64,000 nt of DNA from Polytrichum commune (Eukaryota; Streptophyta; Polytrichopsida; Polytrichales; Polytrichaceae). The notes beneath the pieces are model-generated. The model worked only from the letters and a program-made list of their open reading frames with translations, was not told the origin of the DNA and did not search any database. Positions within the stretch are counted from its first letter, which is position 1. Each line of letters opens with the position of its first letter. Location: NCBI GenBank assembly GCA_950295325.1, contig OX485808.1:19116527-19180526 (forward strand). The letters run 5' to 3'. The translations under genes were made by a program, and so were the position numbers. Positions 1 through 59,080 of the stretch are shown here, one piece after another.

Positions 1-519
1 CCACAAACACGAGTCGATGTACAAGCTTCGGAGCCTAGTCTTTTGGGAAATGGAGAGGTTCGAGAGGAGTTTGATGTGGACGACCATTACGTGGGGCCGG
101 CTAGTAGTCGTCCCCCACCATCTTTCCGCATTGCAGTGGATTGTCATAAAGGTTATATGCTCATTTTGCGTCTTGGAGACGAGACATATGCAAAGCCAGT
201 GTGGGTGGCAAGAGCTTTGTCCAAACCCAATTTTGTAACTTCCAGCCCTCATTTTCGACAAATATAAGTGGAGTACTATCGACCGACAGCAAGGAATGAA
301 GATGTGATTCGGCATTATACAGGCTGGGATACAAACCCTAACTTTCGGTGGAAGGTGGATTCTGAGCACAGTCCATCTTGGGTAGATACAGATTCCATAT
401 TCATAGCATGGAAACCACGGAAAAACCATAGTGGATCAGTGTCCATCCCTCAAAAGTACATAACTTTTGCAAAAGACAACCTTGCTCGGATTGCACAAGA
501 AGCAACCCACGTTGAATGA
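1..519 (+). pseudogene. C-terminal fragment of a DUF7869-type transposase, broken
   Basis: The frame is open from base 1 and closely matches the C-terminal ~170 residues of the transposase gene ending at 41135. Shared blocks include NGxVREEF, HYVGP, VDCHxGY, the FRQI/VEY junction, GWDTxxNF, AWKPRK and FAKDNLARIA. An in-frame TAA at 265-267 falls exactly between FRQI and VEY, so this copy is inactive. The N-terminal part lies outside the window. The family carries an RNase H-like fold believed to act in DNA transposition; that is family knowledge, and this fragment lacks the catalytic region. The protein ends at the TGA at 517-519, and its 3' tail (1011-1049) also matches the other copy. Confidence 0.85.
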
Positions 520-1180
520 GAAGTTGGTAGGATTGTGTTAGCATGATTATATTTTAATACGTAATTATAGCAATATAAATTACACATATGTGTGCTCTTC
601 AAAATTGGGGCAGAGTTTGGGTAGAACTTACGAATACTATATTGTTTGGAGTTGGATGAATATCCATTTACTATATTTCAAAAAAAATGAAGTTCATCTT
701 ATTATTATGTTTGGGACTATATTGTCGAATGAAGAAATATGCATTTATTACATGCACTTTGTATGTTGCAATGTCTATATTCTATTGTGCATGCTAATAA
801 TAGAAATCATTTTATATGTTTTTTGGGTGAAACTTGTTTGGAGTGCTCTACCCAATGTGTTTTTGTTGATGAAGTTGGTGTCGAGTGCTCTACCATATGT
901 GCTTATGTCCACACATCATAGATTTGGGATATTAGAACATATAATATAATTGAGATTGTTGACAATATAGTTTCGGGCCTCTTCAAGTTCTTTGATCCAT
1001 ATATTAATTTGAGACTAGAGAAAGTCTCAATTTAACGAATATAGTGTTAACTACATTAAATGTTTAAATCCTCAAATATGGCCCCACATATATAACCAAT
1101 TACCGACCCTACACCTCATTTCAGGCAATCAAATATGTTCAAAACACTTTCAATTCAGAAACTCGAGCCCACACCTAATT
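520..1180. other. No gene seen; 3' flank of the DUF7869-type fragment
   Basis: AT-rich sequence. The open frames here (for example around 590-949) are low-complexity, hydrophobic by base composition and have no recognisable motif. The only structured part is the tail at 1011-1049. Confidence 0.6.
1011..1049 (+). repeat. Conserved 3' tail of the DUF7869-type element (copy at left edge)
   Basis: A GAGACT...AGTCTC stem is followed by TTTAACGAATATAGTGTTA. The same order is found at 41503-41541 downstream of the second copy (GAGACTTT-CA-AAAGTCTC, then ATTAACGAATATAGTGTTA). Sequence beyond this point differs between the two loci, so this is a candidate 3' end of the element. No matching inverted copy was found at the 5' side. 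Confidence 0.6.
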
Positions 1181-15276: not shown

Positions 15277-15796
15277 ACCGGTCTCTTAATGCTAACAGTG
15301 GAAGACTCCTTAGGTGTTAGAAGTTCAGTGGAACACTCAAACATAGACTCGGAGACTCCATATACACGATATTTCTAGGCTTCAACAACCAGAACGTACC
15401 GACGTCATTATCTACTCTAGTCTGACGAACTGCATGTGAAACTAGACCGGTATGATCGTCAAAAACTTCTTCTTCGACAAAGATAGTGACCTCACGATAT
15501 TGAAACCTCAAACTCAATGTTGCACAAGTGACTATAGCATGACTGTCTTCACCTAATGGAAAGAGGACCGGAACAGAATGAGGTTCAGCACGAAGCAGGG
15601 CCATAGTATACCACAGAACTCTGAACAAAACAAGTACTGTGAACATTGAAATGGCATGAATATATAAGAGGGAACAAATTACAGTGCAAACTGGTAATTT
15701 ATGTACAAGCAAGCGGAATTTCAGAAGATAATAGAGAGTCATGGAGAGTAAGCTGAAAGACGGCTGAAAAACCATTTTTGGATGCAAGTCCGAGAT

Positions 15797-16770
15797 TGTC
15801 GCGCACCTCTCCATGAGGAGTGCCCGAAACACCATGGGCACAAGGGGGACCCCGGAGTGACACCCGGGACTTGTGGCGCCGTTGGTGAGAGGGCCCAAGT
15901 GATCCTAGTGTGGGTGAGGGCCCCGGGCGTTGGGAACGCCTCCCACCCACGAAGACTAGGAGACACAAGGGAAAGGCCATGAGTTATGCGTAGCTCATGG
16001 CGTGGTGATTCTAGAAAGCTCAAGAACACCTCAATCGGAGGTGTGAGCTAGGAGTTATGGCCATTTGAGTGGGGCGCTGTCCCGGGACAGCGCCCTGGTA
16101 CAGCAGTGCCTGGGAGTGATTCCCGGGACTGCCAAGGTTCAAACAGGCATAACTTCCTCAAGACTTGCTCAAATGGGGCACGTGAGGAGTTCATCGGCAT
16201 CTACGTGAAGCGTAGATGAGGATGGAGTGGTTGGTTGTTATGATCAGACATCATACAAGGAAGTTATGATGGTCTGAAGCTGCTGGGGGGTTCTAGGCCC
16301 AGCAGCTAAAGGAAAATGTCCACTTGGCCCCAACTCTTGGTAGAGAGACAAGAGGTTGGTTGACGGTGGGGTAGGGGCCCCGCGTGAAGTCCTAGAGGCT
16401 TATATGGGTGAGGTGGTGTGGCCTCACCCACCCGAGGCCGAACGGCATGGCCTCCATGGGCTTTGGCCCATTGTGAGGCCATAGTTGCCTAGTATGGTTC
16501 GGGTTGTTGTAGTGTTGCTCCGGCAACGTGATGATCAACATAAGATTGGACTTCCACGGATGGAAGTCCACATCTAAGGATTGGTTACCGATAAACGGGT
16601 GAGTCCCAAAATCCAAGTAGGAGGGTTGGTTCCCCTTCTATGAACTATATGGTCCGGGGTAAGAGGAGCTAACCATTAGCATGGCGGAATGCGAAGGGTT
16701 AGCGCTCGTAACCTTTGCTAAAAATGAAAATTGGCAAGATTGTCAAGGGGGCTTAGCAAGGGTTGCGACA
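15797..16770 (+). mobile_element. Solo LTR, family 1, TSD GAGAT, upstream of MULE-like copy 2
   Basis: 974 bp, TGTCGCGCACC...AGGGTTGCGACA. Target duplications GAGAT at 15792-15796 and 16771-16775 are exact. It sits about 190 bp upstream of the transposase start, in the same orientation as the LTR at 14339. Although the two LTRs flank 520 bp, they are not a pair: each has its own TSD and the 520 bp is transposase exon sequence. Confidence 0.95.
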
Positions 16771-20503: not shown

Positions 20504-23440
20504 TAAGGGTAATCTGATATAAGGTTAGATAGGTTTGAAATTTAATTCCAGTGCCGAGATTGCCTTTCTCGGTCCCGAGACATATTGTTTGGTATTGTAG
20601 TTATACTTGTTATAAGTGCAATCTGATATGAGGTTAGTTTGCAATTTTGGGTATAAGGGTAATATGATGCAAGCTTAGAAATTTCTGAAATTCGAGGGAC
20701 AAGTTTGAGTGACTCGGTCCCGAGACACATTTTCTGGTATTCAAACTCTAAACCCTACAATGATAGTTGATATTGAAATCTAGAGATACTTGGTATAAAG
20801 GTACTCTGATATGAGGCTAGATATGTGTGTTTAAAGTGAAATATGATGTGAGGTCTAGATATGCTAGTATTAAGGTCAAACTGATATGAGGTTAGATATT
20901 TGGGTTACAAGTGCAATCTTATATAAGGTTAGTTAGCTATGTTCAACTTGGGTATTAGGGTAATCTGATGTAAGCTAAGTAAGTTAAATCTGATATAAGC
21001 TTAGTTTGGGTAACCTGATATAAGCTCAGTTAGGGCCGAGATTCAAATAAGCTTAGAAAATTCTGAAATTCCAGGGCCGAGTTTGAGTGTCTCGGTCCCG
21101 AGACACATTTTCTGGTATTCAAACTGTAAACCCTACAATGATATTTGATATTGAAATCTAGACATACTTGGTATAAGGGTATCCTGATATGAGACTACAT
21201 ATGTGTGTTCAAAGTGAAATCTGATATGAGGTCTAGATATGCTTGATACAAGTGTAATCTGACATGAGGTTAGAAATTTGTGTCATAGGTGAAATCTGAT
21301 GTGAGGTCTAGATATGCTAGTATTAAGGTCAAACTGACGTGAGGATAGATATGTGAGTTACAAGTGCAATCTGATATGAGATTAGTTTGCAATTGTGGGT
21401 ATAAGGGTAATTTGATTTAAGCTTAGAAATTTCTGATTTTCCAGGGCCGAGTTTGACTGTCTCGGTCCCGAGACACATTTTCTGGTATTCAAATTCTAAA
21501 CCCTACAATGATATTTGATATTGAAATCTAGATTTACTTGGTATAAGGGTACTCTGATATGAGAATACACATGTGTGTTTGAAGTGAAATCTGATGTGAG
21601 GTCTAGATATGCTTGAGACAAGTGTAATCAAATATGAGATTAGGAATTTGTGTTATAAGTGTAATCCGATGTGAGGTCTAGATATGCTAGTATTAAGGTC
21701 AAACTGATATGAGGTTAGATATTTGGGTTACAAGTGCAATCTTATATAAGGTTAGTTAGCTATGTTGGGTATTAGGGTAATCTGATGTAAGCTAAGTAAG
21801 TTAAATATGATATAAGCTTAGTTAGGGTAGTTTGATATAAGCTTAGTTTGGGTAACCTGATATAAGCTCAGTTAGGGCCGAGATTCAAATAAGCTTAAAA
21901 AATTCTGAAATTCTAGGGCCGAGTTTGAGTGTCTCGGTCCCGAGACACATTTTCTGGTATTCAAACTATAAACCCTACAATGATATTTGATATTGAAATC
22001 TAGACATAATGGGTATAAGGGTATCCTGATATGAGACTACATATGTGTGTTCAAAGTGAAATCTGATGTGAGGTCTAGATATGCTTGATACAAGTGTAAT
22101 CTGATATGAGGTTAGAAATTTGTGTTATAGGTGAAATCTGATGTGAGGTCTAGATATGCTAGTATTAAGGTCAACCTGATGTGAGGTTAGATATGTAGGT
22201 TACAAGTGCAATCTGATATGAGGTTAGTTTGCAATTTTGGGTAGTAGGGTAATATGAGGCAAGTTTAGAAATTTCTGATTTTCCAGGGCCGAGTTTGAGT
22301 GTCTCGGTCCCGAGACACATTTTATGGTATTCAAACTCTAAACCCTACAATGGTATTTGATATTGAAATCTAGATTTAATTGGTATAAGGGTACTCTGAT
22401 ATGAGACTACACATGTGTGTTTGAAGTGAAATCTGATGTGAGGTCTAGATATGCTTGATACAAGTGTAATCTGACATGAGGTTAGAAATTTGTGTTATAG
22501 GTGAAATCTGATGTGAGGTCTAGATATGCTAGTATTAAGGTCAAACTCATGTGAGGTTAGATATGTGGGTTACAAGTGCAATCTGATATGAGGTTAGTTT
22601 GCAATTGTGGGTATAAGGGTAATATGATTTAAGCTTAGAAATTTCTGATTTTCCAGGGCCGAGTTTGAGTGTCTCGGTCCCGAGACACATTTTCTGGTAT
22701 TCAAACTCTACTACCTACAATCATAGTAGATATTGATATCTAGATATGTTTGTTATAAGTGTACTATGATATGATGTTAGAAATGTTTGTTAGAAGTGTA
22801 ATATGATCTAAGGTTAGATATTTTGTGTTGTAAGGTCTATATGAACTGGGGTTGAATATGGGTGATATCACTGTAATCTAATGTGAGATTAGATATCTGG
22901 GCTATATCTGTTATCTGATATCGGGTTAGATATGTGTGTGATATGAGGTTAGATATGTGTGTTATAAGTATAATCTGATGAGAGGTTATATTCGCTTGTT
23001 ATAAGGTCAATCTGATATGAGGTTGAATATGGGTGTCATAAAGGTACTTTGATCTGTGGTTAGATATGTGGGTAACAAGTGTAACCTGATAAGAGGTTAG
23101 ATTTCAGTATTATATAAGGTTAGAAATGAGTATAGATATGTTTAATATAAGGGTAAACCGAAATGAGGCTAGATTTGTGAGTTATAACGGTAATCTGATA
23201 TAACGTTAGATAGGATTGATATAAGGGTAATATGATATGAGGTTAGATTTGTGTGTTTGTATGGTCAATCTGATATCAAACTCTACCACCTCTACTGTGA
23301 GTTGACAGTGATTACTAGGTATGAATATGACTTTCTCGGGTCTATTTCTATTAGATATGTGTGCTATAAGTGTCCTATGATATGTGTAATCAATAAAAGT
23401 GTAACGAAAGGTAGTTATGAAGTTGAATATTACTGCCGAT
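20504..23440. repeat. Satellite family B, long-unit section (about 370-470 bp)
   Basis: Units of about 370 bp (one of about 470) are marked by the dyad TGTCTCGG-TC-CCGAGACA at about 21088, 21459, 21931, 22301 and 22671, with diverged forms at 20567 and 20711. Between dyads a 35-45-bp phrase (AATCTGATRTGAGGTTAGATATG with changes) repeats many times, so the array is two-tiered. After 22740 the dyad is missing and only the shorter phrase continues. No coding potential. Confidence 0.92.
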
Positions 23441-26400
23441 TTTCATAGTCTCGGTCCCGAGACACTATTTGAGACTATCAAACTCTACCACCTCACTTTG
23501 AATTTATGGGTTATAAGTGTAATCTGATATGTGTGTACTGTGATATAACTGTAAGGATAGGTAGGTTTGAAATTGAATTTTAGAGTTGATTTCTAGTGTC
23601 TCGATCCCGAGACACTATTTGACACTATCACACTCTACCACATCACTATGGCTTTAAGGGCTATAAGTGTAATCTGATGTAAGTGTAAGGATAGTTAGGT
23701 TTGAAATTGAATTTAAGAGTTGATTTCTAGTGTCTCGTTCCCGAGACACTATTTGAGACTACCAAACTCTACCACATCACTATGGCTTTAGGGGCTATAA
23801 GTGTAATCTGATGTAAGTGTACTCTGATATAAGTGTAAGGGTAGGTAGTTCTGAAATTGCATTTAAGAGTTGATTTCTAGTGTCTCGGTCCCGAGACACT
23901 ATTTGAGACTATCAAACTCTTCCACCTCACTTTGAGTTTATGGGTTATAAGTGTAATCTGATATGTGTGTACTTTGATGTAACTGTGAGGATAGGTAGGT
24001 TTGAAATTGAATTTTAGAGTTGATTTCTAGTGTCTCGGTCCCGAGACACTATTTAAGACTATCAAACTCTTCCACCTCACTTTGAGTTTATGGGTTATAA
24101 GTGTAATCTGATATGTGTGTACTCTGATATAAGTGTAAGGATAGGTAGGTTTGAAATTGAATTTTAGAGTTGATTTCTAGTGTCTTGGTCCCGAGACACT
24201 ATTTGAGACTATCAAACTCTTTCACCTCACTTTGAGTTTATGGGTTATAAGTGTAATCTGATTTGTATGTACTCTGATATAACTGTAAGGATAGGTAGGT
24301 TTGAAATTGAACTTTAGAGTTGATTTCTAGTGTCTCGGTCCCGAGACTGTATTTGAGACTATCAAACTCTACCACCTCACTGTGACTTTAGGGGCTATAA
24401 GTGTAATATGATTTAAGTGTACTCTGATATAAGTGTAAGGGTAGGTAGTTCTGAAATTGAATTTAAGAGTTGATTTCTAGTGTCTCGGTCCTGAGACACT
24501 ATTTAAGACTATCAAACTCTTCCACCTCACTTTGAGTTTATGGGTTATAAGTGTAATCTGATATGTGTGTACTTTGATGTAACTGTGAGGATAGGTAGGT
24601 TTGAAATTGAATTTTAGAGTTGATTTCTAGTGTCTCGGTCCCGAGACTGTATTTGAGACTATCAAACTCTACCACCTCACTGTGACTTTAGGGGCTATAA
24701 GTGTAATATGATTTAAGTGTACTCTGATATAAGTGTAAGGGTAGGTAGTTCTGAAATTGAATTTTAGAGTTGATTTCTAGTGTCTTGGTCCCGAGACACT
24801 ATTTGAGACTATCAAACTCTTTCACCTCACTTTGAGTTTATGGGTTATAAGTGTAATCTGATTTGTATGTACTCTGATATAACTATAAGGATAGGTAGGT
24901 TTGAAATTGAATTTTAGAGTTGATTTCTAGTGTCTCGGTCCCGAGACTGTATTTGAGACTATCAAACTCTACCACCTCACTGTGACTTTAGGGGCTATAA
25001 GTGTAATATGATTTAAGTGTACTCTGATATAAGTGTAAGGGTAGGTAGTTCTGAAATTGAATTTAAGAGTTGATTTCTAGTGTCTCGGTCCCGAGACACT
25101 ATTTAAGAGTATCAAACTCTACCACCACACTTTGAGTTTATGGGTTATAAGTGTAATCTGATATGTGTGTACTTTGATGTAACTGTAAGGATAGGTAGGT
25201 TTGAAATTGAATTTTAGAGCTGATTTCTAGTGTCTCGGTCCCGAGACACTATTTGACACTATCAAACTCTTCCACCTCACTATTACTTCTGGGGCTATAA
25301 GTGTAATCTGATGTAAGTGTACTCTGATATAAGTGTAAGGATAGGTAGTTCTGAAATTGAATTTAAGAGTTGATTTCTAGGGTCTCGGTCCCAAGACACT
25401 ATTTGACACTATCAAACTCTACCACCTCACTATGACTTCTGGGGCTATAAGTGTAATCTGATGTAAGTGTACTCTGATATAAGTGTAAGGATAGGTAGTT
25501 CTGAAATTCATTTTTAGAGTTGATTTCTAGTGTCTCGGTCCCAAGACACTATTTGAGACTATCAAACTCTACCACCTCACTATGACTTCTGGGGCTATAA
25601 GTGTAATCTGATGTAAGTGTACTCTGATATAAGTGTAAGGATAGGTAGTTCTGAAATTGAATTTAAGAGTTGATTTCTAGGGTCTCGGTTCCGAGACACT
25701 ATTTGACACTATCAAACTCTACCACCTCACTATGACTTCTAGGGCTATAAGTGTAATCTGATGTAAGTGTAATCTAATGTAAGTGTACTCTGATATAAGT
25801 ATAAGGGTAGGTAGTTCTGAAATTAAATTTAAGAGTTTATTTCTAGTGACTCGGTCCCGAGACACTATTTGAGACTACCAAACTCTACCACATCACTATG
25901 GCTTGAGGGGCTATAAGTGTAATCTGATGTAAGTGTACTCTGATATAAGTGTAAGGATAGGTAGTTCTGAAATTAAATTTAAGAGTTGATTTCTAGTGTC
26001 TCGTTCCCGAGACACTATTTGACACTACCAAACTCTACCACATCACTATGGCTTGAGGGGCTATAAGTGTAATCTGATGTAAGTGTACTCTGATATAAGT
26101 GTAAGGATAGGTAGTTCTCAAATTGAATTTAAGAGTAGATTTCTAGTGTCTCGGTCCCGAGACACTATTTGACACTATCAAACTCTACCACCTCACTGTG
26201 ACTTTAGGGGCTATAAGTGTAATATGATTTAAGTGTACTCTGATATAAGTGCAAGGGTAGGTAGTTCTGAAATTGAATTTAAGAGTTGATTTCTAGTGTC
26301 TCGGTCCCGAGACACTATTTGACACTATCAAAGTCTACCACCTCAATATGCCTTCTTCGGCTATAAGTGTAATCTGATGTAAGTGTACTCTGATATAAGT

Positions 26401-26690
26401 GTAAGGGTAGGTAGTTCTGAAATTGAATTTTAGAGTTGATTTCTAGTGTCTCGGTCCCGAGACACTATTTAAGACTATCAAACTCTTCCACCTCACTTTG
26501 AGTTTATGGGTTATAAGTGTAATCGGGTATGTGTGTACTCTGATATAACTGTAAGGATAGGTAGGTTTGAAATTGAATTTTAGAGTTGATTTCTAGTGTC
26601 TGGGTCCCGAGACACTATTTGAGACTATCAAACTCTTCCACCCCACTTTGAGTTTATGGGTTATAAGTGTAATTGGATATGTGTGTACCT
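23441..26690. repeat. Satellite family B, regular 150-bp section
   Basis: About 21 tandem units with a period close to 150 bp. Dyad starts are at 23881, 24031, 24181, 24331, 24481, 24631, 24781, 24931, 25081, 25231, 25381, 25531 and 25681, then about 147-168 bp apart. Each unit reads TTGATTTCTAG, dyad TGTCTCGG-TC-CCGAGACA, CTATTTGAGACTATCAAACT, CTACCACCTCACT, ATAAGTGTAATCTGAT. Alternating unit types (with GTTTATGGG or with CTTTAGGGG/CTTCTGGGG) suggest a higher-order pattern. The array ends abruptly in the pseudogene at 26654-27409. Confidence 0.95.
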
Positions 26691-27409
26691 CTGCTTTCTG
26701 GAACGTACGGAGCTAGCATGACTGGCGGGGAACTGACCTTTGCGCCCTCAGTTACGCCAGACTTCTCCATGTCATCCCTCGTTCTCTTCGAAGGAGTGGA
26801 ATGTCTGCTGGTACCTTCCGTCAATCTACTCGCAGTGGGAACAGGCCGCGGAGCACTTTTGGATCCGCCTGCACCGGATTGCGTTGGTTTCTTGGGACTC
26901 TTCTTCTTCTTGTTGGCCTCCAACACAACACTGTTGGTCTTGGAGATGTTCAAGCACAAAGCGGTCAATTTCCTGGCTGTCTAGTGTTGACTTAGGCTAT
27001 ATTTTGTGAAGAGTTTTGTCAGATCGAAACGCTTTCCCTCCTCTTTAACATGCATCTGCGCGTAGTTGTGGGAGAAGGTGTATGCCAAGTAGTCCAGCAA
27101 CACGTTGACGTGGTCATTGTTGTACTTCATGTTGAGGATTACGTAATTGCCCTATGCCTCCACGGAATCTATCTCCCATGTTGCCATCTGCACCCACTGC
27201 TCTGGTTCATCGTCTTTGGTATTGAGCTGGTAGACGAAGCGGAGGACAAATGTTCCATCCTCTAACATCTCTGGAAGCACCGTCCATTCTTTCATGAAGC
27301 CCTCCTGTGGGACATAATTGTCATTCCCATTGTCGTTGGTCACCGACTCTGGGACACTCTCCAACTTCTCCCCGAACATCTCTATCGCGCTTCTGTTAGG
27401 GATGGCCAT
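26654..27409 (-). pseudogene. Broken gene of unknown family facing satellite B
   Basis: One minus-strand frame starting MAIPNRSAIEMFGEKLE (ATG at 27409, directly after a TTTTGCAG acceptor-like sequence) continues to 26654 with two in-frame TAG stops, at 27152-27154 and near 26980. The first half has an ordered, mixed hydrophobic pattern (WTVLPEMLEDGTFVLRFVYQL, WVQMATWEIDS, NYVILNMKYNNDHVNVLLDY in pieces); the second half is basic and low-complexity (KKKKSPKKP, Ser/Pro/Thr-rich). I do not recognise a domain. The last codons come from satellite B, so the 3' end is lost. Palindrome cluster C1 starts 87 bp upstream, as cluster C2 does before the DUF7869 gene. Confidence 0.65.
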
Positions 27410-27495: not shown

Positions 27496-27983
27496 ATTTA
27501 CGAACGCACGTTCGTAAATGTGTTATGTTTGAGAGGCTGTCCTTTTGGCTTTAGAAGTTTATTTGTTTTAAATACCACTATGTTTATATTATTTTGTTCT
27601 GTTGTGACTTATAGTGATTTATATCTTCAAGTTGTCCAACATGTGTTTACGAACGCACGTTCGTAAATCTTTGGACGGGCACAAGGCAGGTCACTTACGA
27701 ACGCTCGTTCGTATAATGAGGTATGGGAAGGGATTGTGTGTTTACGAACGTGCGTTCGTAAATACTCATATTGTTATGTATTCTTTGTTTACGAACGAGC
27801 GTTCGTAAATTTTAGGGGTTTAGGGGTGCGTGTTTACGAACGCGCGTTCGTAAACACATGAACAAAGGATGGGTTGCGTGTTTACGAATGTGCGTTCGTA
27901 AACACATGGACTGGGAGGGGTCACAACAGGTTTGGTTTGCAGGTTGTGTTCACATTTACGAACGATCGTTCGTAAATGTGAAC
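27496..27983. repeat. Palindrome cluster C1: eight ACGAACG-N2-CGTTCGT dyads
   Basis: Dyads at 27496-27519, 27646-27667, 27696-27713, 27741-27762, 27788-27809, 27830-27857, 27878-27905 and 27948-27983. The centres are CA, CA, CT, TG, AG, CG, TG and AT. Symmetry extends beyond the core with different outer arms: ATTTA..TAAAT, GTGTTTA..TAAACAC, and GTTCACATTTA..TAAATGTGAAC in the last, a perfect 36-bp palindrome. Only the copy at 27878 has a core mismatch (GAATG). They lie 5' of the minus-strand pseudogene. Function unknown. Confidence 0.97.
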
Positions 27984-30216
27984 TTCTTGAATGCGTTGTG
28001 TCCGTACGTGTACGTATACGTATATGTATGCACTTCAACTCTGAAGAATGCTTGCGTTCGTGCCTGCAACACTGGATCAGAACCAGGATACTCAATCCAA
28101 ACCAGTGCAGAATTCATAAAGCATACACAACATGCCAAATCTCATGCTAAACAAGTTGACAATACAAACAAAACCCATGGAATTCAACAATGCAGAATTT
28201 CAGAATGTTTGGGAAGCGAGTTTAGAAGGATTACTTCACTCACATTGCAATGTGCTTGACCTTCTTTCTTCTTGCTGAAAATTTTGGAACACTCTTTGTA
28301 TACAATTGAATGAGACCTAAACCCTAGCAACTACTCATGTGCACTGAAATTGCAATCTTGCAACTCTCAAGCTCCCTTCTTCCAAGCTTGCAACTATCAA
28401 TCTCACAAAAACAACCACTAAAACACAGCTTGTAACTCTGAAGCCTACAAACTTGAAGCTGTCACCTAGTAAGTTGTCTTCTCCGAACTTGCAACTATGA
28501 AGCTCACAAAAACAACAAAAAAAGAAAGCTTGCAACCTGCACAAGCTCACAACCTCAAAAGCTCTCTACTCCTGATGCGCATAACTCTGAAGCTCTCTAA
28601 TCAGATTCGTTCCAAACTGAAGAAAAAAGATGCGACTCCTAAGATGCCAAAAAAACACATAAACTAAAGCATTCTAAATTTTGCCAGAGCTTCGCTCCGC
28701 TCTACTTCGCTCCTCCTCTCTCTGCTGGGAATGAGAATGAGGAGGAGAGAAAGGGGCGCGGGGAGGTAGCCGGCACCGCTAGGGTTTCCCTGCGGCTGCC
28801 ATGTGGCATCCCTCCACTGGCCCGCGCTTGACATTGTGGGAACACGTGAACACCAACATATCCGAATTGGCGGTTTTAAGTGCCTAATCCGGTCTGTCCG
28901 GATGACCCTAGTATCATCCAGGGATTCTGTGAAGTGTAGGAGGTCTAGAACTTTCCGTACCTGCTTATTTCCTCTTCCTTAGCCAAATTTCCGGAAACCC
29001 TAATTCCCGGACTTTTGGTCTTTGGGGACACTCTTAACATTTTTCCGGAGTGTGCCTTTCTGGATTGTACCTCTAGATCCTAATTATAATGCTTACTCAC
29101 CCCTCTCTACGTCGACCCTCTAGAATAGGTGGTTTCTTCCGGTGACGACGTCCTCGATAAGATTGGAATCCAGAAACTCCCTCACAGTTAATCCGGATTG
29201 ATCAGATCCGTTTTGGCAGGTCACACAGAGAGATCCGGATTGTTTCTTGGGACCATAGTGACCAGAGGAGTCCGGATTCCGATCGGAGATCTGACTCGAC
29301 GGGATGAGTGGATGACCCGTACCACTCTCCGGATTGTCCCGTCCACCGGTGATGAGGCCTTTTTGGAAGATCGGATAAATCCGGATCCTTTCCGAACCTT
29401 TGCCTAATCTTCCCCGCGGTTGTCTCACCGGGACGGTACGCTGACGTCCGGAACAATGAGGATCTCTTCCTACTACACTCCGGAGGTGGCCTCCAACACG
29501 GAACCCTTGCTGATCCGGTCCTTCCCTTCACCTCCCGACGGATCGGTCCGGCTACCTCTACCTTGGATTCTACTCAATCTGAGCTAACTGGGCGATCCGT
29601 ACCACCATCCGGATGGGTCCGCCTAAGGGCGGTGGGACCTCTTCAGAAGATCAGATTGGCGTAAGTCCGGATCCCTTCCGGATCTCACCCAATCTTCCCA
29701 GCGGCTATCCCACCTAGACGTTACTCAACCCACTGGATTAGTGAGGTTTCCCTCCCACTACACCCAGAGATGATCTACAAGGCGATAACCGGATCTGATC
29801 CGGGTCTCCTCTCTCACGTCCTATCCGGAACTCCTACCCCTCATGCTCTCTCTCTTCCTCCGCTAACGCTCTCCGGACCATCCACACAAACATTAATCAA
29901 GGAAAGTCAAGAATGAGAAGTCAAGGCATTCATTAGAGTAGGAGTAATCAGAATACAACAATGGAGAAGGAACCCTTCCCCAACTCCTTATTCAGCCTTA
30001 AGTAGAGGCCCTAAAATCCCTAAACTGAGGGCGGCGGCCCAAGCGGCCGCCGCTAAGGAAAACCCTAACTACACCTGGTCTCCCGGATTTCCCGGATCAA
30101 GATCCGGATTTTCCGCTGACACTGCCAAGGGAAAATTTTATTACTCATCTTCAAAAACTCCTAAGTCCTACCTGCCTACCTCTATTCTGCCTAACTAAAC
30201 TAGCTATTCTCCTCAA
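27984..30216. other. No gene seen; CCGGAT-rich 3' flank of the gag-like ORF
   Basis: 27984-28680 has scattered CTTGCAACT and CTCACAAAAACAAC repeats. 28680-30200 is GC-richer with a great many TCCGGA/CCGGAT words. A diverged direct duplication of about 290-bp period is seen, about 29310-29500 against 29600-29790 (shared TCCGGATCC, CTAATCTTCC/CCAATCTTCC, GCGGYTRTCYCACC, CACTACAC). No intact ORF; probably 3' non-coding sequence of the retroelement-like unit on the minus strand. Confidence 0.55.
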
Positions 30217-32553: not shown

Positions 32554-33526
32554 TGTCGCGCACCTCTCCATGAGGAGTGGCCGAAACACCATGGGCACAA
32601 GGGGGACCCCGGAGTGACACCCGGGACTTGTGGCGCCGTTGGTGAGAGGGCCCAAGTGATCCTAGTGTGGGTGAGTCCCCGGGCGTTGGGAACGCCTCCC
32701 ATCCACGAAGACTAGGAGGCACAAGGGTAAGGCCATGAGCTATGCGTAGCTCATGGCGTGGTGATTCTAGAATGCTCAAGAACACCTCAATCCGAGGTGT
32801 GAGCTAGGAGTTATGGCCATTTGAGTGGGGCGCTGTCCCGGGACAGCGCCCTGGTGCAGCAGTGCCTGGGAGTGATTCCCGGGACTGCCAAGGTTCAAAC
32901 AGGCATAACGTCCTCACCACTTGCCCGAATGGGGCAAGTGAGGAGTCCATCGGCATCTACGTGAAACGTAGATGAAGATGGAGTGGTTGGTTGCTGGAAT
33001 CAGACATCATACAAGGAAGTTATGATGGTCTGAAGCTGCTGGGGGGTTTTAGGCCCAGCGGCTAAGGGAAAATGTCCACTTGGCCCCAACTCTTGGTAGA
33101 GACACAAGAGGTTGGTTGACGGTGGGGTAGGGGCCCCGCGTAGAGTCCTAGAGGCTTATATGGGTGAGGTGGTGTGGCCTCACCCACCCGAGGCCGAACG
33201 GCAAGGCCTCCATGGGCATTGGCCCATTGTGAGGCCATAGTTGCCTAGTATGGTTCGGGTTGTTGTAGTGTTGCTCCGGCAATGCGATGATCAACATGGG
33301 ATTGGACTTCTATGGATGGAAGTCCACATCTAGGAATGGGTTACCGATTAAGGGGTGAGTCCCGAAAGCAAAGTAGGAGGGTTGGTTCCCTCCTATGAAC
33401 TATAAGGTCCGGGGTAGGAGGAGCTAATCATTAGCATGGCGGAATGCGAATGGTTAGCGCTCGTAACCTTTGCTAGAATTGAAAATTGGAAAGATTGTCA
33501 AGGGGGGGCTAGCAAGGGTTGCGACA
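32554..33526 (+). mobile_element. Solo LTR, family 1, TSD GTTTG
   Basis: 973 bp, TGTCGCGCACC...AGGGTTGCGACA; exact target duplications GTTTG at 32549-32553 and 33527-33531. It is very close to the copy at 15797-16770 along its length, more than to the one at 14339-15276. It sits about 265 bp upstream of the gag-like ORF, so it may have landed in that unit's promoter or LTR. Confidence 0.95.
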
Positions 33527-34018: not shown

Positions 34019-34445
34019 CAGTGGTGATTTTTCACAAGGTCCCTAACATGTCTAGGGACATGTTCATTAAAAAAAAACATTTCCAGTGGAGAGGTTCTTA
34101 GAAAATGAACCGGTTTTTGGACGTGTCAAATTTACTTTGGACAGGTACTAAAAATAATGTTATTATAATTTTTGTCCAAAAAACATAAATGGTATAAATA
34201 TCAATTACATTATGTCATATATGACATGTGAATATAAGCATAATGCAATCAAACCACTAATACCCAATCAAAATATCAAATTGAAGTGCTTGATTCACCT
34301 GCATACATTAATTCATCAACCACAAAATTTAGAACCTTTTTAACATAATATCAAAGATTATAATTGAAGGTACACTTAGCAATTGAATAAGAATCATTAT
34401 ATATGAATATGATCAAAATTTTAAAAATAAATACCTACTTACCCT

Positions 34446-34736
34446 TCAAAGAAGTGGATGAATTCTCCTATCCTTCATGTTTCTCCAAACAAGCATCACT
34501 GCATTCCAATTGATGTTTTCAACTGGAATATTTGCACATGAAATGCGCATCAAAGCATCTAAAGTTTCCAACTTCAAACTAGTACGTAGATGATTTTTTA
34601 TTAGGTTTTGTTTAGAAAAACCCCTCTCACATATTGCAGTGCATGACACAAAAAGGTAGGTTGAATCTCCTCGACCGCGAAGCCTACCAGTTCTTGTTCC
34701 AAAAAAAAAACTCAAATCCTTCACCCAAAACCTCAT
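34446..34736 (-). pseudogene. hAT transposase C-terminal dimerisation-region fragment
   Basis: 96 codons. The segment CERGFSKQNLIKNHLRTSL, then LDALMRIS, matches the conserved ERxFSxxNxIKxxxRxxL...LxxLxRIS pattern at the C-terminus of hAT transposases (ZNF862/ZMYM1-like group). The DDE core and BED finger are absent. It lies between the two hAT ends described above. Confidence 0.85.
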
Positions 34737-34865
34737 AATCCCTCATGCCCAAAAGATATAGAAAGAATGTGTGTAAGAGATACCTAACTAACTCAGATTT
34801 GTCAATGGGAAGAGCTTCAATACCTGCTCGATGGGAAGAGCTTCAAAACTCAAATGGAAGAAATT

Positions 34866-34882
34866 GGGGGGGGGGGGGGGGG
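34866..34882. repeat. 17-nt poly-G tract
   Basis: Unbroken run of 17 G in the hAT element; length may be a sequencing estimate. Confidence 0.9.
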
Positions 34883-35620
34883 CAATGTCGTGGAGGGAAT
34901 GCGGGCGGTAGCAGCTGAAATTAGCAAAAAGACATAGTACTGATGGCATTGAAGCAAGATCCTATTGTTTCCAAGTGCAACCAATCACATGCCAACATCT
35001 TTCGGTTTATCTTTATTAATTGGTTTTTTCTTTAACCTTTTCATGGACGGGTTGGTTTAGAAATTACTTGTTTTGGGACGGGTTGTTTTTTCTTTAACCT
35101 TTCCATGGACGACTTGGTTTAGAAATAATTACCGGTTTTGGGACGGGTTGCAATATTTTTTGCCGTTCAATTCAAGGCTTTTGGACGTGGACGGGCAAAA
35201 ACTTTGTGAAAAATCAGCCTTGGGTGGGGGGGTTTGAAAAAGAACAACTATACAAAATGTACAAGTAACACTTGTACAACTTAAACCCAAAACCATGAAC
35301 ATTTATAGAAATAACACTAATTGTTTTTAAAAAGAGGACCCTAAGGTTTAATACAAAAAAAACATAAACGATAGTATATATAATTCAACTTAACTATTAA
35401 TTGAATGAAACATTCTACAATATGTAACACTTATAACGACTTGAATGTATAAGTAATGAGTTCACATTAAATTCATGATTTGTAAACCCTATATGTAATG
35501 GATGCGTCTATCACATTTAACTTCAATAACTTAGTAAACATGCTTGAATTTTTTTTATCGTCATTCATCTGAGGACATTTTAGATTGAACTTGTGCATTG
35601 CAGCCATGTGGTCGAACACA

Positions 35621-36921: not shown

Positions 36922-37908
36922 TTACGAACGCGCGTTCGTAAAGATGAGGTCCCATTACTAGCACAGTTGGATCGGACGGAATGCTGTGGGTTTACGAACG
37001 CACGTTCGTAACTACCAAAGTAGACCAGAGTCGACGTTGTGACACATGTATATCAATCATGTGCAATGCGAATGTGGTTCATTTACGAATGTGCGTTCAT
37101 AAATGTGGCATCTACGATTTTATGTGTGTACAATTATAAATATAATGGTTGTTCATTTACGAACGTGCGTTCGTAAGTACGCCATCTATGATTTCCTGGT
37201 GTACACCTTCAGATAGGGGTTGCTGTGGTTTTACGAACGTGCGTTCGTAAAGATGAGGTCCCATCACTAGAACTGTTGGATCGGACGTAATGTTGTGGGT
37301 TTACGAACGTGCGTTCGTAACTACCAAAGTAGACCAGAGTCGATGTTGTGACACATGTATATCAATCATGTGCAATGCGAATGGTGGTTCATTTACGAAC
37401 GTGCGTTCGTAAATGTGGCATCTACGCTTTTATGTGTGTACAATTATAAATATAATGGTTGTTCATTTACGAACGTGCGTTCGTAAGTACGCCATCTTTG
37501 ATTTCCTGGTGTACACCTGCAGATAGTGATTGCTGTGGTTTTACGAACGTGCGTTCGTAAACATGCTATCTATTTTGTCCCGGTATAATCTTGGAAATTC
37601 AGGATAGTTGTGGTTTACAAATTTTGCTTGTGAATACAACATGCGAGTTTTGTCCTGGTTTACAGGAACAACTCCTCGTTTATAAACCTTTATACCCAAA
37701 CTCATTCATCCTATGCTATACGAACGTGCGTTCGTATAAAAAACTTCTACGTTCTGCTCATGCAGGTCGATGGTCTGTAATTAACGAACGCCCGTTCGTA
37801 AATTCCACCTGCGATCAATATGATAGCACCTTGAAAGGCTTTATAAGTTATTGACTTCCACACACAGGCACATTCACTATTGCAGTTGTATACGAACGGA
37901 CGTTCGTA
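36922..37908. repeat. Palindrome cluster C2: twelve ACGAACG-N2-CGTTCGT dyads in tandem units
   Basis: Dyads at 36922, 36992, 37081 (two mismatches), 37157, 37231, 37301, 37391, 37467, 37541, 37717, 37784 and 37891. Most are 70-90 bp apart. The centre is TG in eight; others are CG, CA, CC and GA. The first nine sit in two copies of a 309-bp unit (GATGAGGTCCC at 36943 and 37252). Outer arms vary but stay symmetrical (ATTTA/TAAAT, TATA/TATA). The cluster ends about 110 bp before the DUF7869 start codon. A half site CCGTTCGTGAATGTGAAC lies in the gene at about 38071. Confidence 0.97.
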
Positions 37909-38015
37909 TTTAGAACTTGACTGATTTGACATGCTGCGTTGAATGTCGTCCATATTGGCTGACATTCTTTCGTTTATGTTTGGGTCTCCTGGTGCCTCTG
38001 GTTTTTGTAGGTGGG

Positions 38016-41000
38016 ATGGCGATGCATGTGGGTGGTAGTTCTCTGGAGTTGTCAACAGACATGTCGTCCTCCGTTCGTGAATGTGAACTTTCATCCTCAT
38101 CCGCGGGTAGTTTTGACGACACAAACGTGGAGGGTGTGTCATTGCGTACATCTTCTCATGATTCTTTTCAAGTGCACGACCGTTCTCTACATTCCGGTGT
38201 GGACGACGGTGACATTCATTTGTGTGCAGGATATGGTAGGGAGAAATGGGTGGGCCTTGATGTGGTTCTACTTAATGATCTAGGTGTCCCGGTAGCAAAT
38301 GACATATGTAGAAACTCCGATCCCCGTGAATGTGTTGATGCAAATCCCCTTGGTCTCCATGATGTTGGGGTGTGCATCTTGAATTCTTTGCTTCCGCTTG
38401 AGGTCCGTGTGACTTGGAGGTTTTTATTGCGCCAATGGCCCCTTCATCGGGTTTATCATGAAGAAGTAAGCTTGTGGGATCATGGGCGACGGCATGAGCA
38501 AGTTCAATCAACCTTGGTTTCCAACACTCATCCTCGCAAAGGCCTCCGTACATATGATTCTAGCCGCGCGCCTCCTGAGGATAAAGAGCGTCGACGGGAT
38601 CGCATATTAGGAGACGATTATATCCGTCTCGTGTCCGCCAAGGACTGTTGTGCAAAAAGATGTTGCCAATTTTTCCCCCGCGAAAAAATTAAGTCTTTGC
38701 GTCAGGAGATGTGGCTCGCGGATTTTCGTATGAGGTCAGCAAAAAAACTCGAGGTCCATAGAAATTTGCACCTTGATGCCCATGGCCATAAGGTGGTGAC
38801 CCTCGAGAATGTGGAAGTGTGTTGTACCGCATGGTATACCATTCATGCCGTCTCCAAGGCTGACTTTTATAGGTTTAGAAAGTATTCATCATTGGGTCGT
38901 CGCTCTCGATTTCATGGCAATGCGGGCACAAAGAAACCTAGGGAGGCTACACTCCAAGCCTCCGCCACACTCTCCACGATCATAGTGCCATTGGCCGATG
39001 CAATGCCCCACAAGACGAGGACATTGTCGACAGGGGAGAAAGTTGTTCAAATGGTGTTGCCCACATGCACAAAATGGAAGAACATATTAACGGATATCAA
39101 CGAAGTGGGTCGCATAGCGGGTTGTGGGCCCATTTCTTTGTCCAAGTTGAGTGTCATTAAAAACCAACAATTTGCAGAATACATTTTGAAGAGACCTGGT
39201 GACAAGTTCGCGAGGTGCACGACGTGTGAAAAATACAAAGGTCTTCGAGATGCCCACCCCATAGGTACTGAGTCTCATACCAGGCATCAGGCAAAATATA
39301 TTGAACATGTCAACAACCAAAAGGCTCACCGTCAAGATTACTACAAGAACCGTGCTCTGTCCATAATGAGGCCTACAGAGGTTCTAACAATTATCCATGA
39401 TAAAATGGACCACTCGAAGACCGCATGCCCTTGTTATGCTCGTAAAATAAAGGCCACGGATGGTCTTTTCAAGTTGCCCGTATCTGTAACAGGTTTGTAT
39501 GGCATCACAAACCTATATTCACCCTAAATCCAATTTTATTGGGTGTGTTTTCCAAATGTTCTACTTCAGTGGTCTCTTCATTTTTTGGAGATTAACCCAT
39601 CATTTGTTTTTTATAGGTATGATTGCCCACGGCCATGGGGACGTAAAATATGCCCATTATGGTTTGGATTTTTACCCTGGCGATGCTAACCACACGGTGG
39701 GTTCATTTGCAAAACTCTTGCGCGATCTAGAGAAACCGCCGATACAGTCTTCACGTGCATTGTTTGATGGGTGTGGAACGACACCCCTTTATGAGGCAGT
39801 GCTTGTGGGTAAGAAGGTTTGTATGTCGTCATTGCCGGAAGTATCGGAGAGCTTATTTGTGCAAAACCTTTGCCTCCAACTCTCCACGTTCAACTTGATA
39901 ATTGCGCAAAGGACAACAAATGTCGATACGTATTTTGTTTTTGGTCTTTGCTTGTGGCAAAAGGTATCTTCAAGGAGGTGTTTGTGTCTTTCTTGATGGT
40001 GGGACACACACATGACGACATTGATGCGTCTTTCGGACGGTGGAGCATGAAGTTGCATGAGGAAGATTTTCCAACCATACCACTTCTTATGAAATCGTAT
40101 ATGGATTTGGACCATATGCCGGTGATTCTGCACATGATCGAGGAAGTACCAGATTTTAAGGCCTTCATCAAGCCATACATGTTGAAAGGAGGGGACCGTT
40201 TGGTGGGACACACCAAAGCACAACAATTCCGATTCTATATGAGGGATGATGGTCTCCCGGCCATGCAATTCAAGCTTTTGTGCACATCTCCTAATTGGGG
40301 CCCGGATGATGGTATACTAATATGGCGTCAAGACAATGATGGGAAATGTTTGCTCCCGGATAGGGATCCAAAGCCTTGTAAACCCGACCCCATGAGGAAT
40401 GGACCGGAGATCATCAAAGGCATATCCGGATTCATTGAATATTGGAAGGAGTTGTGTAAGGAGGACATCACTAGACGTGTTAGAGATACTCATGAACCAT
40501 TGATTTCATATTGGGATCGCATTCGCTCGGCCCTAGTGACAGTTGATGGCGACACCCGTACGACTTTGACAAAAAGGTTTTGGCCACAAAGTCGTTTGAC
40601 GGTTGTCGAGTCCGACACCATGTTTTTCAGCAATGGAGACGTTCGTGAAGAGTTCGCAATGGATGAACATTACGTTGGCCCTACCCGCAATCGACCGGCA
40701 CCGTCGTTTCGTGTTGGGGTTGATTGCCACGAAGGTTATTTGGTGCTCGTACAAGCTGGGGATGAGGAGCATCCCAAGCCAATTTGGTTGGTGAAAGCAT
40801 TGTCTTCACCCAATTTTGTTCGAACTAGCCCCAACTTTCGTCAAATTGAGGTGGAATATTGCCGTCCAAGCACTAAAGACCAGAACGTGCTTCGCACTTA
40901 TTTAGGTTGGGACACCAAAAAGAATTTCAAGTGGACAGTGGACTCAGTGTACAAACCGGTTTGGATAAACACGGATACTATACTTTGTGCTTGGAAGCCG

Positions 41001-41135
41001 CGCAAAGGTTCCAAAACAGAATCAATGACCATCCCCCAAAAACATATAGATTTTGCCAAGGACAATTTGGCACGTATTGCAGCTGCGGAAAATGACTCGG
41101 ACAATGGATATGAAGCGGAAAATGGAGATGGGTAA
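38016..41135 (+). CDS. DUF7869-type putative transposase, near-complete
   Basis: First in-frame ATG is 38016 (MAMHVGG), just after an acceptor-like TTTTTGTAG at 38002-38010, so a 5' UTR intron is possible. The N-terminal region is Ser-rich; a Cys-rich block follows (CCAKRCCQFF, later CCTAWY), then CTTCEKYKG, and MDHSKTACP near 39403. Intron 39493-39616. The core continues with QLDNCAKDNK (about 39890) and FLMVGHTHDDIDASFGR (about 39995). These are the hallmark blocks of DUF7869 proteins, thought to be RNase H-like DDE enzymes. The frame changes between about 39813 and 39880: a TAA at 39810 closes the downstream frame on its left. So there is a frameshift or a small undetected intron (GGTAAGAAG near 39808 resembles a donor). 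The C-terminus matches the fragment at 1-519. Confidence 0.75.
39493..39616 (+). other. Phase-1 intron in the DUF7869-type gene
   Basis: 124 nt, starts GTTTGTATGG after ...GTAACAG and ends TTTTTTATAG; exons join as SVT-G-MIAHGHGD. Inside the intron the upstream frame hits a stop at 39525-39527. Confidence 0.85.
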
Positions 41136-41502
41136 ACATAACATACTAGGTGGGAGTTAATGGCGAGAGGCATGTGAGCTTAGCAAGCTTGGTTTTTAAT
41201 AGACTTAGTAGACTTGTCACATTCCATTGTGGCATATGTTTGGGATGTGCCATCCAACTTTATAAGACCCTTACTTTTGGGATGGGCACCCTAAACTCTA
41301 AAATGACATAAACAATTTGTTTTTAAAAGTCCATTGTTATTTTTCACATGGACTACACGTTTTCATTGTAATTGAGACGTTCTATTTTTAGTAATGAGAA
41401 TATTCTTCGCATTCGAATTTATACATCATCATGTTCTTGATGTTCCCAATATTCTATATGCCCACAATATTGGCATCCCAAACTATGGGCATATTTAATT
41501 TT

Positions 41503-41541
41503 GAGACTTTCAAAAGTCTCCGATTAACGAATATAGTGTTA
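41503..41541 (+). repeat. Conserved 3' tail of the DUF7869-type element
   Basis: GAGACTTT-CA-AAAGTCTC, a perfect dyad with 2-nt centre, then ATTAACGAATATAGTGTTA. Lies 368 bp after the stop codon. Shared with 1011-1049, where the dyad arm is partly mutated. Confidence 0.65.
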
Positions 41542-56700: not shown

Positions 56701-57830
56701 TTCTGTTAAAAACTAGAAACCACATACGTTCACAACATACTCTTAAACCCCCTATATATACAAAGTTTATTTTTCTAAATCAAGAAATACACGTACAATT
56801 TCAATGATAAAAATACAAGTGACTATATGTATACCTAAATAAAATTACATGTATATACAGTCATTAACATAAGTATAGAAAATACAATCAATCCCTATCA
56901 TATTGTAGAATGCAAAACCCTAGCATTCATCATAAAGTCATTGAAGATTTTTCATCCCCCAAATGCAACTCATAAGCATCTAAATCTATAATATATGTCA
57001 TAAAAACTAATGCAATTATTGTTTTAAAAGATCAATATGATCATGTGAAGTTTTTTTTATCAAATGATTGGGAAGATCATAAGTCCATTTGTTGGCCTTT
57101 TTGATACCAACATAAGCCAATGTCCATGTTTGATAGATTGTCCATCAAGTCAATTGGTCATCTTTGTTTCATCCAATATTAAATACTTATCCTATAAAGT
57201 CTAGTGACACTACCATACAAGTACAAATGTTGTATATGTTCTAGAGGTCCATCATATATGTACATAACTACGAGCCCTTATTTTGTGTAGCATATGTATA
57301 CCCCGGGGTGGCAACTCAAACAAATAATTACAGGGGGCTTGTCCAAAAACTTCACAAAGCCATAGATTATGTACACATGATTGTACATATAATCTAGATT
57401 ATGTTTCAAATTATTAGGATTCAAGAGTTTCAAAAGAGAAGCGGGAGAGAAGCCACCGAGAGAAGTCGGGAAGAGAGTTAGCATTAGGGCTCACAAGCCA
57501 AAATAATCTAGATTATCTTCAAGTTTTTGTAATTAGGTCTGATGGAGAGCAGAGTGATTTGAGCATGTCTATGTATAATACATCAATAATTTGAAAATAA
57601 TGTGGATTTTCTCTTGGACAGGGGGCTCGTCCATAAGATACAGTGACTATCAAAACTGAGTATGAAAAAGCCTAGTCTACCTTTAGCCATTCATATTTTA
57701 TAATTTATTGCATTTAATGCCAAATCAGTTCACGGCTCAAGTATACATGCATGTAAATGATGTGGCTACCAAATTACAAGTCCAACAATGCAAGATAATT
57801 TGAGAAAGATCTAGATCAAAGTAAATTAGC
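53729..57830. other. No gene seen; non-autonomous element debris
   Basis: 53990-55040 has many GTAGTCATT, GACATGGC and CCACATGG words, similar in kind to 59840-60470 and 63800-64000, and probably belongs to one or more decayed MITE-like elements. 55040-57830 is AT-rich; two GACAGGGGGCTCGTCC/TACAGGGGGCTTGTCC phrases (57330, 57617) are direct repeats of unknown meaning. Confidence 0.5.
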
Positions 57831-59080
57831 TCCAAAACTCAGTTATGCTCACACTTGGATTACGCAATGAATGCTACAAATCTGACATGTACAAGTGGTT
57901 TTCTGGGTCCGATTTTTTGGGTGGGCATGTTCTTGGCCTTCACATTTATAATTGTGTCCCCATTCAGTGGACATCATGTATGCAAATTGAACAAAATGGT
58001 TTCATTGAGGTCTCTCTCTGCTACTGGTAGAAAGCAAATAGAAGAAGCTATTTTAGAGAAGTTGAGGAGGGGTGAAAGTACTAGAAATGTTGCTAGAGAC
58101 TTACAGATGTCCCAAAGTTGGGTTGCACAATTCCGTAAGCAACATTTGAGTGAATTGAGTGATGTCAATGACAGTTTTGGTGGCAGGCTACAGGTGTACA
58201 GTGCAGCTGATCGTAGAGCCTGTGTGAGAGAAATCACTGTGAGTGGCTTAGAAACTGCACACAAAGTTGGAAATTACTTGAGAGAAGAGCTTCATGTTGG
58301 TATGAGCGATAGTACTGTGAGGAGAATCTTAGACAAAGCAGGTTTGAAATGTAAAGTGAAGCAAAAGAAACCAAAGCTCACACTTCTTCAAATTAAGGGA
58401 CGATTAGAATTTGCTAGACGTCATTGCCATTGGACTGATGATGATTGGGATCGTGTAGTATTCTCCGATGAAACAAAAATCAACCGATTTTGCTCTGATG
58501 GTCGCAGTTGGTGTTGGTTTCATGATGGACAGAGTAGAAGTGCTGGAATGGTGCAACAAGCTGTCAAGTTTGGAGGTGGGGGAGTGATGATGTGGGGTTG
58601 CATGACTCCGAGTGGCCCTGGTATGATGTGTAGGATTGAGGGAAGAATGGATCAGTACATGTATAGAGAAATTTTAGAGCGAGAGTTGATTCATACACTA
58701 CATGCATACAATTTGGATCCTGCCAATTTGATTTTTCAACATGATAATGACCCGAAACATACATCCAAGAGTGTGCGCCGTTGGCTGAATTCGCAAGAAT
58801 TTACTGTTTTGAAGTGGCCGATGCAATCTCTAGACTTGAATCCGCTCGAACACTTGTGGGCAACTTTAAAATGTCGACTAAACCAATATGAGAGACCTCC
58901 CAAAGGAATGTTAGAATTGTGGGAGCGTGTTGAGGATTGTTGGGCTTCAATTACTCCCAATGAGTGTAAGAACTTGTATAGGAGCATGTCTAAGCGCATT
59001 GCAGCTGTTATAGCTGCTAAGGGTAGGTGGACAAATTTTTAACTTTGTTCTAGCTTGTGTGAGCAAAATTGAGTTTTGGA
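57831..59080 (+). mobile_element. Complete Tc1-type (DD34E) transposon
   Basis: A 24-bp inverted repeat at 57831-57854 and 59057-59080 (TCCAAAACTCARTT..GCTCACAC, 22 of 24 matching) brackets the transposase gene. The span of about 1.25 kb is normal for Tc1-like elements. Outer limits are not fixed: AAAGTAAA on the left and TTTACTTT on the right are also complementary, separated from the inner repeat by a small gap, and either could contain the TA target. So the true ends may lie up to 20 bp further out. Confidence 0.88.
57996..59042 (+). CDS. Tc1-like transposase, intact
   Basis: 348 residues from ATG 57996 (MVSLRSLSATGRKQ); earlier in-frame ATGs exist but they begin at the inverted repeat. 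It would cut and paste the surrounding element. Residues about 10-50 form a helix-turn-helix (RGESTRNVARDLQMSQSWV), a second one covers about 65-115 (DSTVRRILDKAG). Catalytic motifs: D158 in FSDETK, D250 in QHDNDPKHTS and E285 in LDLNPLEHLW, with exactly 34 residues between the last two, the DD34E signature. GGGGVMMWGCM and RMxAVIxAKG-like end are also typical. No stop or shift. Length is normal for the family. Land plants usually carry mariner-like DD39D elements, so the type is unusual here. Confidence 0.95.
   Translation: MVSLRSLSATGRKQIEEAILEKLRRGESTRNVARDLQMSQSWVAQFRKQHLSELSDVNDSFGGRLQVYSAADRRACVREITVSGLETAHKVGNYLREELHVGMSDSTVRRILDKAGLKCKVKQKKPKLTLLQIKGRLEFARRHCHWTDDDWDRVVFSDETKINRFCSDGRSWCWFHDGQSRSAGMVQQAVKFGGGGVMMWGCMTPSGPGMMCRIEGRMDQYMYREILERELIHTLHAYNLDPANLIFQHDNDPKHTSKSVRRWLNSQEFTVLKWPMQSLDLNPLEHLWATLKCRLNQYERPPKGMLELWERVEDCWASITPNECKNLYRSMSKRIAAVIAAKGRWTNF

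Follow-up and report, generated by a model that had tools for sequence, protein, structure and literature searches.

What are the closely spaced palindromes immediately upstream of a DUF7869 gene in Polytrichum commune, and what kind of protein, if any, would be expected to act on them? The 64-kb stretch of DNA analyzed here, referred to as the window, was originally predicted to carry a dimeric protein-binding array at this position, possibly one on which the element's own transposase acts at subterminal or promoter sites. A pattern scan of the window for the dyad ACGAACG-N2-CGTTCGT with up to two mismatches returned 20 sites, compared to a mean of 0.05 and a maximum of one in 100 dinucleotide shuffles. 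Eighteen of these are exact, with the site at 27884 carrying one mismatch and that at 37085 carrying two; raising the limit to three mismatches added a single match in the window, an overlapping one at 27693. A scan for perfect palindromes (arms of at least 9, centers of 0-8) found a 2-nt center in 28 of 56 palindromes versus 0.2 expected from five Markov shuffles, and these 28 include 13 ACGAACG-type dyads and 13 of a second type, TCTCGG-N2-CCGAGA.

All 20 sites lie in two arrays. Array b, as delimited by the pattern scan and by position-by-position counts (36922..37909, no strand assigned), consists of dyads of the form TTACGAACG-N2-CGTTCGTAA with core positions 36924, 36994, 37085, 37159, 37233, 37303, 37395, 37469, 37543, 37720, 37784, and 37892. 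The twelve dyads predicted upstream of the DUF7869 gene are thus present at 36924-37907, 11 of them exact and one with two mismatches, and their predicted spacing of mostly 70-90 bp agrees well with the 8 of 11 intervals that measure 70-92 bp (177, 64, and 108 bp for the remaining three). The gap of about 110 bp to the start codon was likewise borne out: 108 bases separate the end of the last core (37907) from the first ATG of the open frame at 38016. A decayed thirteenth dyad, ACAAATTTTGCTTGTG (37617..37632, no strand), may also be present, judging by eye from its position 74 bp past 37543 and from its left flank; this candidate was missed by the pattern searches. While array b is real, the extent reported for the dyads was too small, since eight more at 27500-27973 had been overlooked. 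The pattern scan places this array a at 27496..27983 (no strand), with cores at 27500, 27649, 27697, 27744, 27791, 27836, 27884, and 27958 (intervals of 149, 48, 47, 47, 45, 48, and 74 bp), the last of these within a perfect 36-bp palindrome at 27948-27983. Array a lies 90 bases from the ATG of an adjoining minus-strand gene. In the 64-kb window all 18 plus-strand occurrences of the half-site ACGAACG fall within a dyad, as do 19 of the 22 occurrences of CGTTCGT, leaving three outside. No isolated dyad with up to two mismatches was found in the 64 kb away from the two arrays, and none with up to three mismatches was found in the window 3' of 37907.

The arms of the dyads are kept and their centers vary, as had been proposed, but the conserved core extends to 9 bp per arm rather than 7. 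Both arms are invariant at positions 1, 3-5, and 7 in 20/20 sites; positions 2, 6, and 8 show one or two departures on one side only; and position 9 is T on the left in 18/20 sites and A on the right in 17/20, with positions 1-9 kept in at least 17/20 sites on either side. The 20 centers comprise eight dinucleotides: TG (10), CA (3), CG (2), and one each of CT, AG, AT, CC, and GA. Each dyad contains four CpGs in its arms, and 77 of the 80 are intact, with all three departures being C-to-T or G-to-A. In contrast, 13 of the 20 centers read TG or CA, as CpG decay would produce, and CpG and TpG observed/expected ratios in the window (0.61 and 1.2, respectively) are as in a CpG-methylating, CpG-losing genome. 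Many of the centers may once have been CG, in which case the arms would have stayed intact in the face of the same decay.

Part of array b is a tandem duplication. A tandem repeat search identified a 310-bp unit present in 2.1 copies at 94% (36922..37565, plus strand), with four dyads in each of the two full units, so the 12 sites of array b are not independent and part of their regularity comes from duplication; with one copy retained per duplicated site, array b contributes eight distinct sites, the set used for the flank-orientation test. Aligned over 310 positions, the two full units show 16 differences and one gap. These differences fall at 3/8 center positions, 2/56 arm positions, and 11/246 other positions, with change in the centers exceeding that in both the arms (Fisher p 0.012) and the remaining positions (p 0.006). 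In this pair of units the arms are no better kept than the spacers (2/56 versus 11/246, p 1.0), and the case for arm constraint rests on older repeats because this comparison alone fails to separate the two. Among 76 within-array spacer pairs, 20 scored z>3, consisting of four recent duplicates and 16 diverged pairs, and the other 56 scored z<=3. In the 16 diverged related pairs, spacer identity was 0.60 of the longer spacer (0.52 in shuffles), or 0.75 over aligned columns (0.70 in shuffles), compared to 0.955 in the arms, and in the 56 pairs the spacers stood at 0.46 of the longer spacer versus 0.44 in shuffles and the arms at 0.98; in all of these figures the pairs overlap and are not independent, and the arms are the search key by which sites were picked. 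A decayed site, such as the candidate at 37617, also drops out of the site count.

The two arrays differ in their underlying units, with a spacing of about 47 bp in array a, for which the tandem repeat search reported no unit despite this regularity, and mostly 70-92 bp in array b. Leave-one-out tests of flank orientation were positive for 8/8 sites within array b, and scoring with flank models revealed no consistent orientation shared by the two arrays: the array b model placed 3/8 array a sites forward (sum -8.0, sign-flip p 0.65), and the array a model gave a sum of +10.2 for array b. A single element spanning both arrays and split by insertions was considered, and flank orientation gave this no support. 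A few short flank matches between the arrays do occur, among them a stretch of 32 bp including the dyad that is 94% alike between 27734-27765 and 37293-37324, and common descent of a few sites across the arrays is possible. Taken with the diverged context, the differing units, and the unoriented flanks, it is the dyad, more than its surroundings, that is common to both arrays.

The gene downstream of array b, with exon limits judged by eye, has a first exon at 38016..39492 that encodes the N-terminal part, a GT...AG intron at 39493..39616 that keeps the frame, and a second exon at 39617..41135 (all plus strand) that encodes the DUF7869 domain. An acceptor-like TTTTTGTAG lies just 5' of the ATG at 38016, and there is an apparent frame change near 39.81 kb. 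Inside the coding start, at 38072-38090, is a lone half-site, CGTTCGTGAATGTGAACTT, of which 18/19 bases equal the right side of dyad 27958 by eye. The Pfam profile PF25273 (DUF7869) matches 39813-41132 (E 5.5e-38, 130.9 bits versus a curated cut-off of 26), and exon 1 contains no Pfam domain above cut-off. PF25273 was the only family found in the three scanned pieces of this gene, none of which matched a Mutator domain. The earlier description of this gene as a transposase is not established here, as Pfam assigns no function to the PF25273 domain; the predicted structure of 39813-41132 has a mean pLDDT of 31, too low to judge an RNase H-like DDE fold, and a literature search on the name DUF7869 returned no match.

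A second, older DUF7869 copy was identified by sequence comparison at the left edge of the window (1..519, plus strand), where its 3' end with an in-frame stop is present and its 5' side lies beyond the window, leaving one copy whose 5' side can be inspected. Over 164 codons the two copies share 57% amino acid identity, with 70%, 81%, and 40% identity at first, second, and third codon positions, respectively; dN is 0.30, and the calculation gave no usable dS (-1), which we take as saturation. Third positions being far less alike than first and second positions, the DUF7869 protein was under selection for a long time. The similarity resumes in a 52-bp stretch located approximately 355 bp beyond the stop codon in one copy and 480 bp in the other (81% identical), where a GAGACT..AGTCTC stem-loop is followed by TTAACGAATATAGTG at 41490..41541 (plus strand), matched at 998..1049 (plus strand) in the second copy, and finishing in ..TATAGTG in both. 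We infer that this stretch is the 3' end of a DUF7869 element. Dispersed, diverged copies with a common terminal sequence are a trait of DNA transposons, seen here for two copies; a 5' counterpart of this terminal sequence was not found within the window.

The gene adjoining array a is of a different kind. In the ORF list it consists of three open pieces interrupted by in-frame stops (26690..27409, minus strand), and an acceptor-like TTTTGCAG immediately precedes its ATG at 27409. Pfam profiles all stayed below cut-off, the best being PF02613 over 26984-27151 (E 0.012, 16.1 bits versus 22.2). The gene presumably belongs to a mobile element; since it has no DUF7869 match, a link of both arrays to a single element family would be conjectural.

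Many DNA transposons have subterminal repeats, and in Spm/En these are TnpA sites that accompany CACTA terminal inverted repeats and a 3-bp target duplication. Like Spm/En, array b presents many short sites near an element gene, and the 3' end shared by the DUF7869 copies reads CACTATATTCG in reverse complement. Unlike Spm/En, in which subterminal repeats are found at both ends, the dyads here lie only 5', no matching 5' terminus is present in the window, and the protein domain is DUF7869. VANDAL elements, for their part, are Mutator-type, and anti-silencing VANC proteins are known from Arabidopsis. The original view that no described element has this layout proved too strong, as arrays that are much alike are described for VANDAL/VANC (PMC5735166), where the motif arrays are specific to each family, lie in noncoding DNA both upstream and intronic, and grow by tandem repetition. 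In these accounts (PMC5735166, PMC10398659) VANC21 binding depends on motif density in noncoding DNA, and the high motif density is unique to the VANDAL element. The likeness lies in the dense array in noncoding DNA upstream of a gene, here 108 and 90 bases from the ATGs, and in its construction by tandem repetition, which is seen in array b. VANC6 motifs are also mentioned there in AT9TSD1, an element unrelated to VANDAL (PMC5735166), which would parallel the presence of array a beside an unrelated gene. The VANC21 motif, YAGTATTAY, is non-palindromic and occurs in one orientation, in contrast to the symmetric arms of the dyads here; VANDALs also carry a Mutator-type transposase (VANA), in place of which we find the DUF7869 gene, with no Mutator domain in its three scanned pieces. 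Given the DUF7869 gene and the palindromic motif, this element is not a VANDAL, and no VANC-like protein was identified here.

Searches beyond the window returned no dyad arrays in viral_contigs, with spacers of 25-55 and 50-80, and no relatives of DUF7869 in viral_contigs, with phages and PDB also giving no hits; such zeros say little on plants, as the records in the collections are viral, phage, bacterial/archaeal, and PDB ones. The genome_contigs collection (bacterial/archaeal; spacers of 25-55 only) yielded 12 stretches whose outer bases differ from those of the dyads, of which 11 belong to a single Saprospiraceae MAG and the twelfth to Actinoplanes. The Saprospiraceae stretches (L001, L003-L012) are closely spaced REP-like palindromes, AGACGAACG-N2-CGTTCGTCT, on 10 contigs, which resemble the dyads in having the same 14 inner arm bases and closely spaced pairs and differ in their outer bases (mostly AG..CT), their center (mostly GC), and their bacterial genome; we read this likeness as chance convergence. 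A serine-recombinase site, in which the 2-nt center would be the crossover, was rejected, as 12 tandem sites are unlike a crossover site; no recombinase family was found among the Pfam matches of the 20 scanned ORF pieces. Mutant lox arms resemble the dyad half-site, which we take to be chance.

Several other explanations for the arrays can be weighed against these data. One is a passive palindromic minisatellite that has no function and is kept by conversion or duplication. The 310-bp duplication fits such a history, as do other palindrome-bearing repeats in the window, namely the 34 TCTCGG-N2-CCGAGA sites; within the 150-bp satellite of 21 units, this palindrome is slightly better conserved than the remaining bases (0.964 versus 0.921). 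It is difficult to reconcile with spacers that sit at or little above the shuffle level when the arms are at 0.955-0.98, with 18 arm bases that are identical in two arrays with different units, and with centers that vary when the arms do not, and we regard it as improbable. It is somewhat less probable still that the dyads act as RNA hairpins in a 5' UTR or as extruded DNA cruciforms. Folded as RNA, the 22-nt consensus reaches -8.7 kcal/mol (z -3.7) and 27945-27986 reaches -23.3 kcal/mol (z -6.7), with 37290-37332 weaker relative to shuffles (-11.8 kcal/mol, z -1.9), and outer pairs 9, 13, and 15 exceed column shuffles (p 0.017, 0.015, and 0.009, respectively). Against this, position 1 would lie inside the 4-nt RNA loop and is nonetheless invariant in both arms in 20/20 sites, positions 1-8 show no compensatory change, every change being one-sided, and pairing at outer positions 10, 14, and 18 does not exceed that in shuffles, with 11, 12, 16, and 17 not significant.

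Protein binding can be considered in more than one form. That the dyads are transposase sites near an element end, subterminal repeats of the TnpA type, draws on the TTAACGAA present at the inferred 3' end, a sequence that resembles the half-site TT(T/A)ACGAA. This part of the original prediction is weakened, as no dyad with up to three mismatches lies between the DUF7869 gene and the inferred 3' end, the 3' terminal sequence has no 5' copy in the window, and array a adjoins another gene; we consider it quite unlikely. Dyads restricted to the 5' side argue against sites for transposition ends and in favor of control of expression or chromatin. Such control could come from the host, the dyads being sites of a dimeric transcription factor in an ordinary enhancer array captured by the elements, a reading that we hold unlikely but worth retaining: the arrays of two unrelated genes are about equally far from the start codon (108 and 90 bases), and a TATA-like stretch can be seen by eye at 37840. 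A host factor would be expected to have single sites too, yet the 64 kb contain neither an isolated dyad nor an ACGAACG outside the dyads, with CGTTCGT found three times outside them. We know of no plant factor with this 9-bp half-site.

The reading that we tentatively prefer, which falls somewhat short of an even chance, is that the arrays are predicted clusters of dimer-binding sites in 5' noncoding DNA, amplified in tandem, that likely serve an element-encoded control of transcription or chromatin, as in VANC. The proposed dimeric binding array fits well with the 9-bp symmetric arms, the free 2-nt center, half-sites found nearly only in dyads, and arms kept while spacers diverge. In this model, a symmetric protein dimer would bind each dyad, contacting two TTACGAACG half-sites 2 bp apart whose centers, at approximately 9 bp, would be near one helical turn. 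Arrays in noncoding DNA on the 5' side of mobile-element genes may grow by tandem duplication and so raise the local density of sites, and a protein of the same element family could then act on them in de-repression or anti-silencing. By this analogy the dyad cluster is probably a switch by which the element controls itself. If the dyads are such an element-specific switch, the VANC-like layout would extend to an element outside the Mutator type, and amplifying a target array would suggest itself as a common way for transposons to address copies of themselves. Since every half-site contains CpGs, methylation-sensitive binding would also be directly testable. A bolder extension, which we consider rather unlikely, is that DUF7869 elements use a second system of anti-silencing or self-activation that evolved independently, convergent with VANC and directed at palindromic CpG target arrays, and that several families here follow the same design of CpG arms, 2-nt center, and family-specific letters; such a range of families is hinted at by the TCTCGG-N2-CCGAGA arrays, which are unrelated and lie within this window.

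These TCTCGG-N2-CCGAGA dyads number 34 with up to one mismatch, versus 0.07 expected, at 1215-1749 and 20567-26612. The five near 1.2-1.75 kb have the center TT and outer bases CACCC..GGGTG, and the 29 in the region of the 150/370-bp satellite have mostly TC as the center and often AGTG..CACT as outer bases. The remainder of the window contains a variety of other repeats and genes. Two related genes at 2907-6522 (plus strand) and approximately 11037-15604 (minus strand), with 55% amino acid identity over 608 columns, have a Mutator-like look by eye, with a SWIM-like CNC..CKH end, and no Pfam match at cut-off. A TGTCGC..GCGACA repeat is present in three copies (14339-15276, 15797-16770, and 32554-33526) with 5-bp direct flanks ACCGG, GAGAT, and GTTTG, as solo-LTR-like insertions; the first two lie within the minus-strand Mutator-like gene or a short way upstream of it. 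Four premature stops in broken minus-strand genes (26981, 27152, 31389, and 31776), noted by eye and not systematically, are TAG and likely arose from CAG through CHG methylation decay; the stop in the left-edge DUF7869 copy (265-267) is TAA, so TAG is not a rule. A Tc1/mariner-type transposase gene is present at 57828-59039 (DDE_3, E 7.9e-14; HTH_Tnp_Tc3_2, E 4e-12), with no ACGAACG-N2-CGTTCGT dyads near it. A CTAAACC repeat of 6.4 copies is located at 35621 and, together with the intron, points to a genome of plant type. The segment at 34025-35216 has inverted ends, TGATTTTTCACAA and TTGTGAAAAATCA, with no target duplication established, and by eye is possibly a hAT-like element.
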